Source: Bacteroidota bacterium (GTDB lineage Bacteria; Bacteroidota; Bacteroidia; Chitinophagales; Chitinophagaceae). From it: a stretch of 46,849 bases of DNA. Below the pieces are notes generated by a model that searched no databases, was not told the DNA's origin, and saw only the letters and a list, made by a program, of their open reading frames with translations. The position numbers and the translations under genes are program-made. Below are positions 4,082 through 11,922 of the stretch, piece after piece. The stretch is taken from contig JAFDYA010000120.1 in assembly GCA_018267675.1 (NCBI GenBank), positions 1-46,849 of the forward strand. Reading direction: 5' to 3'. Numbering within the stretch: the first letter of the stretch is position 1; each line of letters begins with the position of its first letter.

Positions 4082-5431
4082 CTACTGTTTTACAAACTGA
4101 ACCATTTTCTGATAGCCGCCTTCAGCCCATCTTGCCTTCAACCAATAGATCCCCGGTGCCAACTGTGCCAACGGAAGAACAAACTCCTGTATTCCTGAAT
4201 GTAGCTTTTTGGTATTACTCAAGACTAGCGCCCCATTTGCTCCAAAAATTTGCAATTCCACCTCGGATGCTGTTTGTGTAGCAACTTGCACATTGGCCAC
4301 TGATGCAACAGGGTTCGGGTACAAATTCAAGTCTTCAGCAGCTCCACCACAAGACACTTGCAGCACATTGGAGCTTTGGCGGGTACCGTCCCTACCAATC
4401 AAATTTATTCGGAAATATTGCCCCCCTGCCCTATCTTGGAATTGATAGTCGGACTGAGCTTCCTGAGCAGCTATCATTTCTGCTGGCTCCCATTTAGCAC
4501 CATCCTCGCTTCGCTGCACCTCAAACATTGCTACCGAAGCAGGCGATGAAATGCGCCAATTCAATTGAGCTTTACCACCATCACACTTCCCAGAAAAATT
4601 GATTAGTGCCAGAGGTAAGGGGTTACTCATAGACGACAGGGTCCAACGAGAAAAATCAGGGATTCCCATTTTCTCAACAAAGTTGCTCGCAGCGCTTTTA
4701 CTAGAATATCCTTCATTCTTCCAATGAATCGTGTCCTTACTCTTCCAAAGGCATAGCCCCGATTCAGACAAAGAGTTTAGCTCCGCATCAAAGTACTTGA
4801 GCTGGAGTGTTGCATTCAATCCCGAATTATTACTCGGGAGAATATCGAAGAACCTAAGTATACTGTTCCCGGAATTTGTACTATTCACTTGGCTTGTGTG
4901 CCCACGGCGGATAGTTGTACTTCCTAAATTTTGGGTACTAGAAATTATTGCCCCCAAATTACCTGGATTAGCAGTTGTTGGGGCATTCAAGGTTGTTGTT
5001 ATTTCAACGAAACCACCTGTAGATCCGGTAATCCGACTTGTTTCCGACTCGTTGAGTAATACCGCATTTGGCGCTAGTCTCATGTTGTAACCATTCAAGT
5101 CTATGTTACCTTCACTGAACATCACGGCCGTTTTGGCCATTGTAGTATCCTGAAGAATGAGGGCAGCACCTCCCGATTTAGCGATTACAAGTGTGTCAAA
5201 ATTTGAAACAGATGTACCAACCCCAGCTACCCTAGTGTTGGCAGTACCGGATATCAAAGTAGTACTTCCCGCATTCTGTACAAAAGTACCTTCATTGATT
5301 AGGTCAGCATTCTTTAAGGTGAGCAAGGCATTCCCTACGGAGATTAGCGAAGCTCCATTTTGAATATAGAGCTGCGCCCAGCTTGATGTGTATAAGAACA
5401 AGAGCAGCGAAAGGGTAATAATGCTTTTCAT
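4082..5431 (-). CDS. Secreted protein with T9SS type A sorting domain
   Basis: The protein has 449 residues. Residues 1-19 are a Sec signal peptide (cleavage after TSSWA). Residues about 20-260 are Gly/Thr/Asn-rich beta-helix-like sequence with no family I can name. A short beta-sandwich-like segment (about 270-355; FSGKCDGGKAQLNWRISS) is typical of the region before T9SS tails. The last ~80 residues (LYPNPVASVANVQV to MVQFVKQ) form a type A C-terminal domain, the signal for secretion across the outer membrane by the type IX system and usually for attachment to surface lipopolysaccharide. It lies 82 bases downstream of a GIGT/C1q gene in the same direction with no clear terminator between them, so co-transcription is possible. 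The ligand or enzyme activity is unknown. Confidence 0.88.
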   Translation of the reverse strand: MKSIITLSLLLFLYTSSWAQLYIQNGASLISVGNALLTLKNADLINEGTFVQNAGSTTLISGTANTRVAGVGTSVSNFDTLVIAKSGGAALILQDTTMAKTAVMFSEGNIDLNGYNMRLAPNAVLLNESETSRITGSTGGFVEITTTLNAPTTANPGNLGAIISSTQNLGSTTIRRGHTSQVNSTNSGNSILRFFDILPSNNSGLNATLQLKYFDAELNSLSESGLCLWKSKDTIHWKNEGYSSKSAASNFVEKMGIPDFSRWTLSSMSNPLPLALINFSGKCDGGKAQLNWRISSPASVAMFEVQRSEDGAKWEPAEMIAAQEAQSDYQFQDRAGGQYFRINLIGRDGTRQSSNVLQVSCGGAAEDLNLYPNPVASVANVQVATQTASEVELQIFGANGALVLSNTKKLHSGIQEFVLPLAQLAPGIYWLKARWAEGGYQKMVQFVKQ

Positions 5432-5513: not shown

Positions 5514-7169
5514 CTAGAATATTTTGTACAACGCAAAACCAGTGCCTTCTCCCGGAATCATATACTGGGTAACCCCGGATGATTGATAGAATTGAATTTT
5601 CACGACATCACCTGCTTGCAAGGGCATATCATACACGCCATTCACATTAGCAGGCAGATAGTCGCCATTGTCGAGGTAACTTTGATGGACCGTATAACTC
5701 GTTGTGGCACTACCCCGGGTGACCAAGATTTGAACTTGAATCGCCCCACCGCTGGCCGCTATTAAATTATTGAGGTTTAAACTCGTGAAAACATGGTAGA
5801 AGCCATTTGAGGGCACAGTATACGCCTTGGTAGTATTATTGAAATTATTACCATTATCAAATCCAGCGGTGCCGGACACATTGTCCTGAAACGGAACCGT
5901 AACTGCGGTGCCGGAAGACACGCTTTGCCAGCCCAGAGGATGAGAACTGTTGGGAATCATAAAGGTCATCGCAGCATCTGCTTTTGTCGGGCTCTCCTTC
6001 CAACTAGCGTTACCTGAGGCGTCACTAGTCAATAGCTTGTCGGCACCTGCACCTGTAGTCATTATCAAATTTGTAGTCTTGGTGGTACCATTAACTTCCA
6101 ATTTGGTGGAGGGGTTTTGAGTGCCAATGCCCAGATTTCCGGTACTGTTCTGAAGGGTCACTTTGGCACCACCATTATTGGTAGTAAAGTTCAAATCTGT
6201 TGCAGTATGGGTTTGTACATAGGCATTAGTACTATTTACGCTAAACCCAACTGCATTTGCCCCATTACTACTTATTTGTCCTACACCCTCGCCATCCGCC
6301 TGAACAGTCAACGGATAGTTGGCTACCGTGCCAAGCACCGCTACCCGGCGTACTTTTAACGTATCCGTGAGCTTCATGTTTCCAGCCACTTCCAGTTTCT
6401 CTGATGGATTTGCGGTAGCAATACCCACATTACCATTGCCCTTTATGCGCATCAATTCTGTGAAGGAGCTACTACTACCATACCCAAATGCGATATTATC
6501 CGAAGCACTTCCTGCATAAAACTGCATAAGATAGCCTTGTAAACCGATTCCGTACCGATTGTTTACACCGCTATTATAAAATTCAATTTTAGGCCCAACC
6601 GTGTTTGCAAACGACAATGGCGCCAATGGGTTAGTATTTCCTTGTAAGCCCAGGTTCCCGGTATTGGTATTGAAAAGCATTTTCCAGCCTGCTCCTGTGA
6701 AACCATAGAAACCCATAGTCGTGTCATTAAAGGTTCCTAGGAATCCATTGACCGTCGTTTCATCAGCTTTTGTGAATTCGATACCCGGAGCAATCCCAGA
6801 AGAAACATTACCACTAAACCGAAGTCGCCCCTTCTTTATATCCAGTTTTTGTGCTGGAGTTTCGGTACCAATACCTAAAAATCCATTGCCCTTCTGCAGG
6901 GTCATTTGTGCCGCCATGTTATTGGTGGAAAAGTTCAAGTTATTATTGGTATGAGTTTGGATATATGCCCCATAAGTGTTGTCGACGAAGGTGCCGACAG
7001 CAATTGTTCCGTCGGGTGATATCTGGGCAAAACCTTGCCCTAAACTCGTATTGTTCGTATCTTTTACAGTGAGGACGTACTTAGGGATTTTAGTACCCAC
7101 ACCAACATTCTGCGCCATGGCAGCAATGGAGCTAAATAAGAATAACGAAAGTAAAGCTTTCTTTTTCAT
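5514..7169 (-). CDS. Secreted GIGT-repeat protein with C-terminal C1q-like domain (paralogue 1)
   Basis: The protein has 551 residues. The signal peptide is 1-19 (cleavage at AMA/QN). The module at 21-110 (NVGVGTKIPKYVLTVKD ... LGIGTETPAQKLDI) recurs at about 285-360 (YPLTVQADGEG ... LGIGTQNPSTKLEV). GIGT-type turns also occur near 248-262. This is the pattern of Bacteroidota proteins with tail-fibre-like beta-solenoid stalks. Residues about 412-551 form a C1q/TNF-like jelly roll (GFDNGNNF, YTVPSNGFYHVFTSLNL, MPLQAGDVVKIQFY, FALYKIF), a domain that usually trimerises and binds ligands. There is no T9SS tail. The neighbour at 7367-8803 has the same first and last domains, and its promoter matches this one. 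An adhesin or matrix role is inferred; no enzyme motif is seen. Confidence 0.85.
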   Translation of the reverse strand: MKKKALLSLFLFSSIAAMAQNVGVGTKIPKYVLTVKDTNNTSLGQGFAQISPDGTIAVGTFVDNTYGAYIQTHTNNNLNFSTNNMAAQMTLQKGNGFLGIGTETPAQKLDIKKGRLRFSGNVSSGIAPGIEFTKADETTVNGFLGTFNDTTMGFYGFTGAGWKMLFNTNTGNLGLQGNTNPLAPLSFANTVGPKIEFYNSGVNNRYGIGLQGYLMQFYAGSASDNIAFGYGSSSSFTELMRIKGNGNVGIATANPSEKLEVAGNMKLTDTLKVRRVAVLGTVANYPLTVQADGEGVGQISSNGANAVGFSVNSTNAYVQTHTATDLNFTTNNGGAKVTLQNSTGNLGIGTQNPSTKLEVNGTTKTTNLIMTTGAGADKLLTSDASGNASWKESPTKADAAMTFMIPNSSHPLGWQSVSSGTAVTVPFQDNVSGTAGFDNGNNFNNTTKAYTVPSNGFYHVFTSLNLNNLIAASGGAIQVQILVTRGSATTSYTVHQSYLDNGDYLPANVNGVYDMPLQAGDVVKIQFYQSSGVTQYMIPGEGTGFALYKIF

Positions 7170-7236: not shown

Positions 7237-7244
7237 CAAACATA
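7237..7244 (-). promoter_or_regulatory. Promoter -7 box TATGTTTG of GIGT/C1q paralogue 1
   Basis: TATGTTTG matches TAnnTTTG exactly. Nineteen bases upstream is TTCG, one mismatch from the TTTG -33 element. Such a weak -33 suits a promoter that needs an activator. It lies 67 bases before the ATG, and the same octamer is used by the paralogue at 8878-8885. Confidence 0.6.
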
Positions 7245-7274
7245 TTCGGAAGGGAATAAGGATCGAATAAGAAA

Positions 7275-7304
7275 CCGCCGAACGACCAAATAAACCGCTG
7301 AACG
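7275..7304 (-). promoter_or_regulatory. Paired direct-repeat operator, probable LytTR-type site
   Basis: Read on the minus strand, CGTTCAGCGG (7304-7295) and CGTTCGGCGG (7284-7275) are direct repeats with a period of exactly 20 bp. The downstream copy ends 30 bases before the -7 box. The paralogous promoter has the same geometry (8916-8945). The core TTCGTTCAG agrees at 8 of 9 positions with the AlgR/LytR-family consensus [TA][AC][CA]GTTN[AG][TG], where N is any base. A LytTR regulator gene lies about 4 kb away. Confidence 0.6.
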
Positions 7305-7366
7305 AAACCAATGATGTACGCACCAGAATACTTTTAGCCCCCAAATGAAGACTTAGGAACACTTTG

Positions 7367-8803
7367 CTAATAAATCCTATAGCCCGTCAGGCGTGAATCT
7401 GCGGTGTTGAAAAAGTTTTGGGTTTGTCCGGAATTTTGCGTTAGTATGAAGATGACTTTGTCGCCAGCTTGAAGTTTCAGGTTGATACTTCCAGAACACG
7501 CCGGAACTGTCTTCCCGTTGTAAATATTATTGCGCCAATAAGTAGTGGAACTCGTATTGGTCTTCATCTGCACGGTTACTAATCCGTCTTGGGATGCACT
7601 ATTACCCCAAAACCGAAGGGACCACTCGAAATGATAAAACCCGGTGGTAGGAACAGTATACCTCCCCGACGTAAAATTATTACCATCATCAAATGCGTAG
7701 CTTAAATTGGTATTGCCCGAAGTGGCATCAAAGGGAATGGTGTCCGCTACACCACTGGTAATCCCCGTGAGTTTATTAACATCTATTGCGGCGAAAAAGC
7801 CTGAATTGGAAATTGACGTTGGGGTGCTTGTGGGCTGCCATGATGCTGTGCCTACTGCATCACTCGTCAATACTTTACCCGCACCCGGAACGCCACCTTG
7901 CACTTTGATTGTTCCAGTCAATGTTGTATTCCCGTATATTACTGCATTACCATTTACTTCTAACTTGGCGCTCGGTGCCAATACCCCAACACCCATGTTT
8001 CCGTTTCTCAGTATAGTCAGTACGTTGCTGCGGACACCTACATTGCCGTTACCAATTTGTAAAAGCCTATCAGTTGCGGCAATGGTATTGGGGTTTGGGT
8101 TGTCCGAAGTATCATTGTAATATCCCAAAGCCATTCCGTAATTAGCTTTCGCTAGTGTGTTGCTCCCTAGTGCAAACGAAAACTTTGCTCTAGCTTCCGT
8201 CAAATTTCCAAATGCTGTGGCGTTAAAGCCGAGAGCGCGAGTGTCGATACCTGCTGCAAAAGAATTCTGCCCAGAGGCTTGTGTATTTTCACCAAAAGCG
8301 GTGGAAAATTCACCAATATTGTCTTTATCCCACGCAGTATCCAAAACATACCCTGCACGAAACGCCGACTTCTGGGCATACCACATCATTCGCTTTCCTT
8401 GGCCTTCAATGGGTGGCGCGGAAGGATTGGGATTGAAGCTGTAGTAACCCCCAAAGACGACAGAACTATCCTCCACATGTAGCCTTGCTTTTGGCGTAAA
8501 GGTGCCAATACCAAAGTACCCGGTATTCTTCTTCAATACCAAAGCTACTCCTCCATTATTGGTAGCAAAACAGAGATCGTTGTCTGTATGAGTCTGTATA
8601 AATGCTGCCCCATAGTTGTCCACATAGGTGCCTAGTGCAACTTGGCCATTAGGGGATACATTAGCAATACCGATTCCTCCGGCGGACGTTGAGTCTTTTA
8701 CAGTAAGCGGAAACTGAGGGATCTTGGTTCCGATGCCCACATTTTGGGCCATACAATCACTTAAGGGATATAGGAACAGGGTAATAAGCAGGAATTTCTT
8801 CAT
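7367..8803 (-). CDS. Secreted GIGT/YadA-head-repeat protein with C1q-like domain (paralogue 2)
   Basis: The protein has 478 residues. The signal peptide is 1-19 (CMA/QN). Residues 21-110 are the same GIGT module as in paralogue 1 (NVGIGTKIPQFPLTVKD ... FGIGTFTPKARLHV). Residues about 164-228 are trimeric-autotransporter head repeats of about 14 residues (STAFGENTQASGQ, SFAAGIDTRALGF, ATAFGNLTEARAK, SFALGSNTLAKAN), a left-handed beta-roll seen in YadA-type adhesins. A further GVG..PSAKLEVNG turn follows at about 270-285. Residues about 335-478 are the C1q-like jelly roll (YTVPTTGFYHFEWSL, LQAGDKVIFIL, LTGYRIY). There is no T9SS or autotransporter anchor. The protein is probably a trimeric stalk with a C1q head. 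The middle section differs completely from that of the paralogue, suggesting domain shuffling between conserved ends. Confidence 0.85.
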   Translation of the reverse strand: MKKFLLITLFLYPLSDCMAQNVGIGTKIPQFPLTVKDSTSAGGIGIANVSPNGQVALGTYVDNYGAAFIQTHTDNDLCFATNNGGVALVLKKNTGYFGIGTFTPKARLHVEDSSVVFGGYYSFNPNPSAPPIEGQGKRMMWYAQKSAFRAGYVLDTAWDKDNIGEFSTAFGENTQASGQNSFAAGIDTRALGFNATAFGNLTEARAKFSFALGSNTLAKANYGMALGYYNDTSDNPNPNTIAATDRLLQIGNGNVGVRSNVLTILRNGNMGVGVLAPSAKLEVNGNAVIYGNTTLTGTIKVQGGVPGAGKVLTSDAVGTASWQPTSTPTSISNSGFFAAIDVNKLTGITSGVADTIPFDATSGNTNLSYAFDDGNNFTSGRYTVPTTGFYHFEWSLRFWGNSASQDGLVTVQMKTNTSSTTYWRNNIYNGKTVPACSGSINLKLQAGDKVIFILTQNSGQTQNFFNTADSRLTGYRIY

Positions 8804-8877
8804 GTCTTTAAATTTTTTGGGGATCTAGAAATTGGTAAATGAATGCTCCTTTAACCGGAGCTTTCCGCAATTCCCGC

Positions 8878-8885
8878 CAAACATA
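8878..8885 (-). promoter_or_regulatory. Promoter -7 box TATGTTTG of GIGT/C1q paralogue 2
   Basis: This exact TAnnTTTG match is identical to the box of paralogue 1 and lies 74 bases before the ATG. No TTTG is present 19 bases upstream (AACG instead), again pointing to activator dependence. Confidence 0.6.
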
Positions 8886-8915
8886 AAAACTCAGATAAGC
8901 CTGGCGTTTAAAAAG

Positions 8916-8945
8916 CCGCTCAATGGAAGAAAAAACCGCTGAATG
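8916..8945 (-). promoter_or_regulatory. Paired direct-repeat operator, probable LytTR-type site
   Basis: On the minus strand CATTCAGCGG (8945-8936) and CATTGAGCGG (8925-8916) repeat with a period of exactly 20 bp. The downstream copy ends 30 bases before the -7 box, the same distance as upstream of paralogue 1. The flanking A/T run (AAAA before CCGC on the plus strand) is also shared. The rest of the intergenic region 8804-9012 shows nothing else recognisable. Confidence 0.6.
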
Positions 8946-9012: not shown

Positions 9013-11052
9013 CTAAGAAAATCTCAAAATAGCAACCGTGCGTTCCTCTTCACGCTCTTCAAAATCTAGCCGAAGGGCTACCTTCCTACAGAGTTCGTCG
9101 ACCAACTTTAGGCCCATACCGGAAAGGGAAGTAGTATTATCGGAAAGGGCATTTAAATAGTCCTGCTGTTTAAAACTGATTCCAGTATTGATAATCTTCA
9201 AACAATTTCCTGAAAAAACAACATCCACAGAAGTGTTATTCGGAGCTGCTTTTAACGCGTTTTGAAGCAAATTTCTAAGAATGATTTGAAGGAAATACGC
9301 ATCCGTCTGAACCTTTACATCCGGAGTAACTGCTACATTAACGGAAAGCTGCTTTGCGTCGATATTTAGTTGTAACAAAGCCTTACACTGTTGGACGACA
9401 GGCAGCAGCGGTACCGTTTGCACGCTTGCTGAAAATGAAGCCATTTGCGTCTTACTCCAAAGCAATAGGTCTTCCATCGTCTCTAGGAGCGTGCCTGTGG
9501 CCGATTGAATTTTGGCACTTAATAGTTCCTTTTCTTTTTCATCAATAAGAGTCGGATGTTGTTGTTGCAATTTCAAGAACTGATACACCTGGTTTATTGG
9601 CGAACGTAAATCATGGCCGATAACACTGAATAGCTTCGCTTTAGTTGAATTCGCCTCATCCAAGGCTCTATTCTTTACTGCCAGGATTTCTGCATTCTTT
9701 TTCTTATTCCGGTAAATGACTAATAACAATACAAAAGCAAGTCCCAATAAAACTAAACCTACAATCATCAACAACCTTTGTTTCCGGACATCGGCCAATT
9801 GTAAGCTTTGTGCTGCTATGCGGATTTGCTTTTCTTTATTTTGGAATTTCGCTTCAGCCGATGCTATTGATTGTTTCGAGGCTTGTAGATAAAGTGTATC
9901 TCTTAAGGGTACATACTTCTGATAGTAGCTAACTGCCATTTTTAGGTTTCCAATGCCTGTATAGCATTCTGCAATCAATCGGAGAATCTGAACATAGTCT
10001 TCCTTATTCATAGATTGGAACATGGCCTCCGACCTCCCGAAATTTTGTAGCGCTTCTGCATAATGCCCCTGCTGCATTTTAAGCTTTCCTAGCGCGAGGT
10101 TTAAGGCATTTATGACGTAAGGATTCACTTGGCTCGTATCCTTAATCGGCAGGATGCCTGCTAGAAAAAATTGAGCACTATCTTGTTTCCCAATACCAAG
10201 ATAATGATCGGCAAGTGTCAGTTTGATCGCGTTATAATTATCCCGTACATCTCCGGGTATAACATTGGGCAGGCTTTGTAGCGCTAAAAGGCTATCTGCA
10301 TATAGTTCAGCTGTTTTTACTTCCCCAATACCAAGGTAGGCTATAGCGGCATCTCTAAAATAAAAGGTAAACAAGCTGGGTTGCCGTACCGGAGCATTTG
10401 GCCGCCCAAGAAGCAGATACTCTACAGCTTTTGGATATTGCTTAATTTCAAGATAGCTGGAGGCAACGCGCATGTAGGCAATCAGTCGATTAGCACTATC
10501 ATTACCATTTAAATTCCTATCCCGATTTTCTTGAATCATTGCATCCAATGCCTTAATATCACATTGTAATTGCATTTCGTGGTATCCTAGTACACCATAA
10601 TAGCTGGACATAGCTGTATTTAACCTATTCAGCATTTTTGGAGTTTGAGCAGTGTCCAACATAGCACGCAACTGCTCCGCTATCTTATCCCGCTCCTTTT
10701 CTTTTTCTGGCAGGTTACAATACAATTCATTGAGCGACTCCAGATTATCAAAAATTAATTTGGAATTACCGACATGCCGAGCATTAATCAATGATTTTTT
10801 CAGGTAAGGCTCTGCAACGCCTGGATTGCTGAACCTAAACGCATACCCTACATAGTATTGCAAGCTAGCCTTAAAGTCTAAATTAAGGTTAGGTTTTGAC
10901 AACTCTCGTTGTGCAAGAGCTGCTGATTGTTCAAACTCATCCCGATTATTCAATGAATCGAGCATTTGAATAAATGCCTGGTCAGGCGTTTGGGCCAATG
11001 TAAAATGATAGGACAGTAAGCCTAAAAAAAGCGTAAGTAATATTTTGTTCAA
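9013..11052 (-). CDS. TPR sensor histidine kinase
   Basis: The protein has 679 residues and a TTG start that overlaps the stop of the regulator gene (TTGA), so translation is coupled. Residues 1-20 are a signal peptide. About 25-420 is an extracytoplasmic array of tetratricopeptide repeats. A transmembrane helix is at about 427-447, then a short coiled coil, then the dimerisation/phosphoacceptor helix with H480 in VIGHDLRSPINQ. The ATPase domain has an N box NLLQNALK near 594-601 and a G2 box SGMGLKLV near 644-651. The G1 box reads NTGISF (N622), not the usual DxGxG, so the Asp that contacts adenine is missing. It presumably phosphorylates the adjacent LytTR regulator. The TPR sensor region suggests sensing of a peptide or envelope protein; the signal is not indicated. 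Confidence 0.92.
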   Translation of the reverse strand: MNKILLTLFLGLLSYHFTLAQTPDQAFIQMLDSLNNRDEFEQSAALAQRELSKPNLNLDFKASLQYYVGYAFRFSNPGVAEPYLKKSLINARHVGNSKLIFDNLESLNELYCNLPEKEKERDKIAEQLRAMLDTAQTPKMLNRLNTAMSSYYGVLGYHEMQLQCDIKALDAMIQENRDRNLNGNDSANRLIAYMRVASSYLEIKQYPKAVEYLLLGRPNAPVRQPSLFTFYFRDAAIAYLGIGEVKTAELYADSLLALQSLPNVIPGDVRDNYNAIKLTLADHYLGIGKQDSAQFFLAGILPIKDTSQVNPYVINALNLALGKLKMQQGHYAEALQNFGRSEAMFQSMNKEDYVQILRLIAECYTGIGNLKMAVSYYQKYVPLRDTLYLQASKQSIASAEAKFQNKEKQIRIAAQSLQLADVRKQRLLMIVGLVLLGLAFVLLLVIYRNKKKNAEILAVKNRALDEANSTKAKLFSVIGHDLRSPINQVYQFLKLQQQHPTLIDEKEKELLSAKIQSATGTLLETMEDLLLWSKTQMASFSASVQTVPLLPVVQQCKALLQLNIDAKQLSVNVAVTPDVKVQTDAYFLQIILRNLLQNALKAAPNNTSVDVVFSGNCLKIINTGISFKQQDYLNALSDNTTSLSGMGLKLVDELCRKVALRLDFEEREEERTVAILRFS

Positions 11053-11774
11053 ATGCCGGTATTTAGGTATTGAGAAATTGCCATCCGGTAAGTCTTCCCG
11101 ACCGGCAAACGGATAGCGTCCGAAACAATAATTTCACTAGTGCTCACTCGGACAATATGCGATTGCAACACGGCATAACTTCGGTGTATTCTAAGAAACT
11201 GAAAATTTGAATATTGCTGTAGAAAAGTAGAAAGGGGCATATTAACCATATACTTCTGGCCATTCGTTACAATTTTGGTATAGTCCTGCATCGCTTCCAA
11301 ATATAAAATTTCTTTGAGGGACACTTTGTGTTTGTTATATCCATCTTTAACAAAAATTGCCGCACCTTCAATTACCAATTTATACGCATCAGCGCTTTGC
11401 CGCATTTGCCAATACTCGCTGATCCGAAGTGCAGTTTGCGCAAAGCGAAGGTTCGATATTGGTTTCAGTAAATAATCTAAAGCCGCAAGTTGAAACGCAT
11501 CCAATACATATTCATCATGAGAAGTACTGAAAACCAACATTGGTATTTGTCCCGCAAGCACTTTAGCCAATTCTACACCAGAGCCACCCGGGATATCAAT
11601 ATCCATAAAAACAAGATCCGGTTGTAGGTTTTTGATATAGGTCAGGCCTTCGGCAATATCTGATGCTGTTGCCAGATGAAGCCAATCTTGTTGTTGTTGA
11701 GTGAGTGCAAGTAAACTCAATTCATCAATTCGTTGATCTTCTACAATTACAAATCGAATTTGCTTTCCCTGCAC
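11049..11774 (-). CDS. LytTR-family response regulator
   Basis: From the GTG at 11774 the product has 241 residues. A receiver domain covers about 5-122, with an acidic pocket in VIVED, phosphoacceptor D58 in LVFMDIDIPG, the conserved Ser/Thr near FSTSHDEYVLDAF, and K in LLKPIS. A LytTR DNA-binding domain is at about 140-240 (IFVKDGYNKHKVSLKEILYLEA, FLRIHRSYAV, LPVGKTYR). The frame also has an ATG at 11843, but that adds 23 residues before the receiver's first strand and places the start upstream of the TAAATTTG promoter-like box, so the GTG is preferred. The gene overlaps the kinase gene by four bases and is the natural candidate to bind the paired repeats before the two C1q-domain genes. 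Confidence 0.9.
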   Translation of the reverse strand: MQGKQIRFVIVEDQRIDELSLLALTQQQQDWLHLATASDIAEGLTYIKNLQPDLVFMDIDIPGGSGVELAKVLAGQIPMLVFSTSHDEYVLDAFQLAALDYLLKPISNLRFAQTALRISEYWQMRQSADAYKLVIEGAAIFVKDGYNKHKVSLKEILYLEAMQDYTKIVTNGQKYMVNMPLSTFLQQYSNFQFLRIHRSYAVLQSHIVRVSTSEIIVSDAIRLPVGKTYRMAISQYLNTGI

Positions 11775-11789
11775 TTTCTCAAAAGAAGT

Positions 11790-11797
11790 CAAATTTA
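11790..11797 (-). promoter_or_regulatory. Candidate -7 box TAAATTTG for the LytTR/kinase operon
   Basis: This is an exact TAnnTTTG match 15 bases upstream of the GTG start and downstream of the ftsZ terminator. No TTG lies 17-23 bases further upstream, so the call is tentative. Confidence 0.35.
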
Positions 11798-11859
11798 CGT
11801 CCAAGGCAAACAATTTAATATGGCAATATACATTATTGCTCAACTCGCACCAATGGCCC

Positions 11860-11891
11860 TAAACAAAATCGCCACCCGAATCCGAGTGGCG
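11860..11891 (-). terminator. Rho-independent terminator after ftsZ
   Basis: On the minus strand a 9-bp stem (11891-11883 with 11878-11870, CGCCACTCG / CGGGTGGCG, one G-U pair) with a GATT loop is followed by ATTTTGTTT. It sits 32 bases beyond the ftsZ stop and closes the dcw cluster. Confidence 0.8.
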
Positions 11892-11922
11892 AAGCTGTTA
11901 TCCATAAACCTCTTAAATGTGC

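Follow-up and report, generated by a model that had tools for sequence, protein, structure and literature searches.

Two pairs of direct repeats, each placed before a gene for an exported C1q-type protein, are very likely the operators of an adjacent LytTR response regulator which, as judged from sequence comparison, would activate C1qA on one side and a unit of C1qB and a T9SS-tail protein on the other. The window, i.e. the whole stretch of DNA analysed, comprises 46,849 nucleotides (contig JAFDYA010000120.1 of assembly GCA_018267675.1, a Bacteroidota bacterium of the family Chitinophagaceae). LytTR regulators accompanied by TPR kinases are common in Bacteroidota, and we found no operator or target described for such regulators in the open-access literature. 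The genes of the cluster follow one another on the minus strand in the order ftsZ, LytTR regulator, TPR kinase, C1qA, C1qB and T9SS-tail protein, and the features that concern us are:

11049..11843, minus strand: LytTR response regulator, assigned by Pfam Response_reg (54.6 bits) and LytTR (64.1 bits) matches and by the regulator tree
9013..11052, minus strand: TPR sensor histidine kinase, with a signal peptide, a TPR region, one TM, a GHDLRSPI motif and a HATPase domain
8916..8945, minus strand: candidate operator A, CATTCAGCGG-N10-CATTGAGCGG, a direct repeat with sites 20 bp apart
8878..8885, minus strand: -7 box of promoter A, TATGTTTG, 30 bp past the second site
7367..8803, minus strand: C1qA, exported protein with an NVGIGT head, Pfam YadA_head repeats and a C-terminal Pfam C1q domain
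7275..7304, minus strand: candidate operator B, CGTTCAGCGG-N10-CGTTCGGCGG, a direct repeat with sites 20 bp apart
7237..7244, minus strand: -7 box of promoter B, TATGTTTG, 30 bp past the second site
5514..7169, minus strand: C1qB, exported paralogue of C1qA with head repeats and a C1q-like end
4082..5431, minus strand: exported protein with a T9SS C-terminal sorting domain (Pfam Por_Secre_tail)

The true start of the regulator is likely the GTG near 11774, and the H-D-L-R-S-P motif of the kinase is invariant across its orthologues. The signal peptide of C1qA was recognised by eye, and its Pfam C1q match reached 32 bits (cut-off 23.7). C1qB shares 35% identity with C1qA in two blocks, the C1q-like end included, and gave no Pfam match; thus, the "two C1q-domain genes" of the preliminary description are one gene with a Pfam C1q domain (7367-8803) and one paralogue without such a match (5514-7169). 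In the Pfam search Por_Secre_tail was found in the 4082-5431 protein only and was absent from both C1qA and C1qB. The gene of that protein (5431-4082) runs in the same direction as C1qB, is probably cotranscribed with it, and has no copy of the operator before it. At the other end of the cluster, between ftsZ and the regulator, a GC-rich hairpin followed by T-rich DNA was seen by eye at 11860-11900; it is likely a terminator that parts the division genes from the regulator cluster.

LytTR regulators bind paired repeats close to [TA][AC][CA]GTTN[AG][TG], about 21 bp apart. The half-sites of the pair starting at 7304 agree with this consensus at 8 of 9 and then 7 of 9 positions, and those of the pair at 8945 at 8 of 9 positions each. 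Direct reading gave the same geometry at both promoters: 20 bp from start to start of the repeats and exactly 30 bases from the second site to TATGTTTG, with TTTG absent at -33. The paired sites with their 20 bp repeat and 30-base distance, the 8 of 9 agreement at 7304 and the lack of a proper TTTG had been described before and proved exact. The spacing of 20 bp leaves 11 bp between the 9-bp repeats, vs 21 bp, or 12 between, in nearly all relatives. The repeat-pair pattern occurs twice in the window vs 0.07 times expected from shuffles, and the intergenic regions before C1qA and C1qB are dissimilar outside the repeats and the box, in line with the earlier claim of a spacing conserved beyond chance amid divergent sequence. 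The motif is not frequent in the host genome either (2.7 Mb, environmental Bacteroidota, 84%-complete): at 0-1 mismatch only the two window pairs were recovered, the four matches at 2-3 mismatches all lay in or at coding frames, and looser patterns with 20 and 21 bp spacing again returned only the two window pairs genome-wide. Searching this genome with the consensus of the relatives at 21 bp spacing gave chance-level matches only.

The position of the sites relative to the promoter was the same in other genomes. A TAnnTTTG-like box (at most 1 mismatch) starts 29-30 bp past the second site in 28 of 28 aligned promoters, compared with about 1% at other offsets; this set was partly chosen with the box in the score, and the 16 promoters of relatives that were found without the box all agree. 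At the -33 position, TTT was present in 16 of the 28. The distance from the first site to the box is 60 in the window, as in relatives with 21 + 29, and therefore the window differs only by a one-base shift of the second site; G098, a distant relative, has the same 20 + 30 arrangement as the window. When the 47 kb window was scanned with a matrix built from the relatives only, operator B ranked first (29.3, a score reached by 0 of 200 shuffles) and operator A second (14.9; in 34 of 200 shuffles the best site scored at least as high).

We propose that the regulator very probably turns on these surface-protein genes. In response to a presumed signal, the TPR membrane kinase (11052-9013) would phosphorylate the regulator (11843-11049), whose activity may depend on this step. 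A regulator dimer would then bind both half-sites, which would lie on the same face of the DNA, separated by about two helical turns and immediately upstream of -33, and would bring in the housekeeping RNA polymerase at promoters whose -7 box (TATGTTTG) is good and whose -33 is poor. Each unit would be served by one operator: A for C1qA alone, and B for C1qB and the T9SS-tail protein. Activation is predicted from position, because the sites are upstream of -33. The opposite sign, i.e. that the same regulator represses from these sites, is improbable: position alone does not prove the sign of regulation, but the sites are clear of both the -7 box and the start site and occupy the usual LytTR activator place (PMC4227749), and the window's -33 is poor, as activator-dependent promoters should have it.

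A minority of family members has an orthologue of the TPR kinase: among 149 family genomes, 13 had one at E<1e-40 and, the window's genome aside, 8 at E<1e-60. Operators were present past the kinase gene in Niabella pedocola, G129 (Taibaiella koreensis), G130, G111, G131, G062, G251, G267, G363, G404, G360 and G215; for the first six the DNA directly past the kinase gene was read without pattern search, showing two paired sites in Niabella pedocola and a paired site in each of the other five. In Taibaiella koreensis the operator on contig C16 is identical to that of the RefSeq contig. The consensus pair of the relatives is CGTTYRNCGATT-N9-CGTTSGTCGGTT, usually 21 bp apart, and the half-site carries GCGG in the window and NCGATT/TCGGTT in most relatives. 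A box-free pattern search of 396 family genomes returned 23 matches vs 10 with the reversed pattern, the intergenic ones mostly before genes for exported proteins and lipoproteins. The raw matches in G020, G031, G093, G095, G101, G213 and G383 were set aside as chance, since they fell within reading frames or simple CGTTTATCGTTT arrays. Each of the 13 genomes in which this search placed an operator between genes had a kinase orthologue at E<1e-140, and raw operator matches and kinase co-occurred across genomes (Fisher p = 9e-7) in the evenly drawn 149-genome sample, whose membership in the 396-genome search was inferred from the order of handles. More than ten relatives with an orthologous kinase pair bear a matching paired site before exported-protein genes, the conservation that the preliminary description had called for; in G251 the kinase pair stands with both a VGIGTT-type relative of C1qA/B and the T9SS gene.

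The system is not evenly distributed. The nearest genomes, those of the window's own genus, lack the system entirely, so conservation was judged over longer evolutionary distances. The genus of G159 has an orthologous kinase pair and no recognisable operator; in G069, the other genome considered there, the region is cut by the contig end. In G159 (L034 8230-8350) we observed CCTTTCGCC and CCTTTACCA as a weak pair with 22 bp spacing, 30 bp before TACTTTTA. No clear operator was found near the regulators of the same group in Dyadobacter and Pseudarcicella; in Pseudarcicella the gene past the regulator encodes a 1382-aa protein unlike the TPR kinase. Separately, a conserved operator, CCTTCGTCGATT-N9-CGTTCGTCGATT, with TTTG at -33 and distant from the kinase was seen in G251, G004 and G129 (L156, L157 and L158, respectively).

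We also asked which regulator of the host genome the sites belong to. Because the repeats bound by LytTR proteins are alike and six LytTR matches occur in the genome, the sites could be operators of another of these regulators, with the adjacent pair governing something else. We regard this as slightly less probable still than repression. In a phylogeny of 34 regulators, that of the window falls inside a supported group with 27 members, among them all the operator-linked regulators, whereas the four other full-length LytTR regulators of the genome fall outside it, on long branches whose exact place is unsure (the sixth match is a cut fragment). Moreover, the operator lies directly past the kinase gene in at least 10 genomes, and the operator-bearing genomes have the kinase. 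The operators of the relatives, the co-occurrence and the regulator tree together argue for control of the C1q genes by the adjacent LytTR/TPR-kinase pair, as had been suggested.

The genes behind the operators differ between genomes. G251 retains the whole cluster, with a regulator and a kinase each 40% identical to the window's, an operator, several NVGIGTT proteins (one with 46-47% identity to the C1qA and C1qB heads), and a T9SS protein with 43% identity to the window's 4082-5431 product over 450 aa. In G111, on another contig than the main kinase pair, an operator is followed by a gene whose product shares 58% identity with C1qB over 180 aa, and then by a T9SS-tail gene. G184 has three operators away from the main kinase pair, each before a gene for an NVGIGTT/NVGVGTT protein, and one of these proteins matches C1qA over its C1q end (28%, E 3e-10). 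In the same genome (L195:5376-8381) tandem, near-identical NVGVGTT genes each have their own operator, in parallel to C1qA and C1qB. In Niabella-like genomes and others the cargo consists of small lipoproteins. When the C1q proteins were searched whole in the family, they gave mostly head-repeat matches, and orthology at the gene level was patchy. Since the cargo varies among genomes, the operator is tied to the regulator and not to one gene family. The "dedicated" regulon of the preliminary description stands insofar as only two promoters were found in the 84%-complete genome; in other genomes unrelated lipoproteins are part of the cargo as well. C1qA and C1qB are paralogues, but that their sites are a functionless remnant of the duplication of genes and upstream regions is hardly credible, given that the remainder of the two intergenic regions is unlike and that the same kind of site stands at the same offset before unrelated lipoprotein genes in other genera. 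Under regulation by the adjacent pair, one regulator family would be joined to exported surface proteins that change from genus to genus, being C1q-like fibres in some and lipoproteins in others. Such a locus supplies regulator, operator sequence, promoter geometry and cargo, and it recurs in many genomes, which makes targets predictable.

The promoter layout may extend beyond this regulator group. A second repeat type, CATTCACCGA occurring twice at 21 bp, gave 26 matches vs 4 with the reversed pattern in 296 genomes of the phylum in a search that did not use the box. The box stood at 29-30 in 12 of the 26, with at most 1 at any other offset, and the box-bearing pairs lay in short intergenic stretches, mostly before genes for membrane proteins and lipoproteins. 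In many Bacteroidota, pairs with TAnnTTTG at 29-30 stand before genes for small membrane proteins or lipoproteins; they were noted at L215, L217, L222-L225, L233, L234 and L237-L240. The CATTCACCGA pairs probably serve a further LytTR group as operators. At four loci that have LytTR regulators of other kinds, different repeats showed the same box offset. On balance we favour the idea that Bacteroidota share one LytTR promoter layout, with direct repeats 20-22 bp apart, the second ending 29-30 bp before TAnnTTTG, and a repeat sequence that depends on the regulator group. If so, sequence alone would suffice to identify the targets of the many unstudied LytTR/TPR-kinase pairs of the phylum.

In published LytTR operators, direct repeats of 9 bp are separated by 11-13 bp and stand 4-11 bp upstream of -35 (PMC6193735), a geometry that the window's pairs share. 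In particular, HdrR/BrsR of Streptococcus mutans resembles the window in having 9-bp repeats 11-13 bp apart, just before -35, at several target promoters (PMC6193735); the window differs in its phosphorelay response regulator with a TPR kinase, in its Bacteroidota -33/-7 promoter, and in the absence of an operator site before the regulator's own gene. AgrA of Staphylococcus aureus binds direct repeats centred near -60; at agr P2/P3, as is proposed here, a dimer occupies two direct repeats ahead of a suboptimal core promoter (PMC4227749). In contrast to the AgrA system, the window has a TPR sensor kinase with one TM and a GHDLRSPI H-box, and the cargo consists of exported fibre/C1q-like proteins. 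Finally, AlgR of Pseudomonas recognises CCGTTCGTC, and the second half-site of several relatives is identical to this site (PMC4064291); AlgR sites, however, are mostly single, scattered and often far from the promoter, whereas the sites described here are paired and fixed to it.
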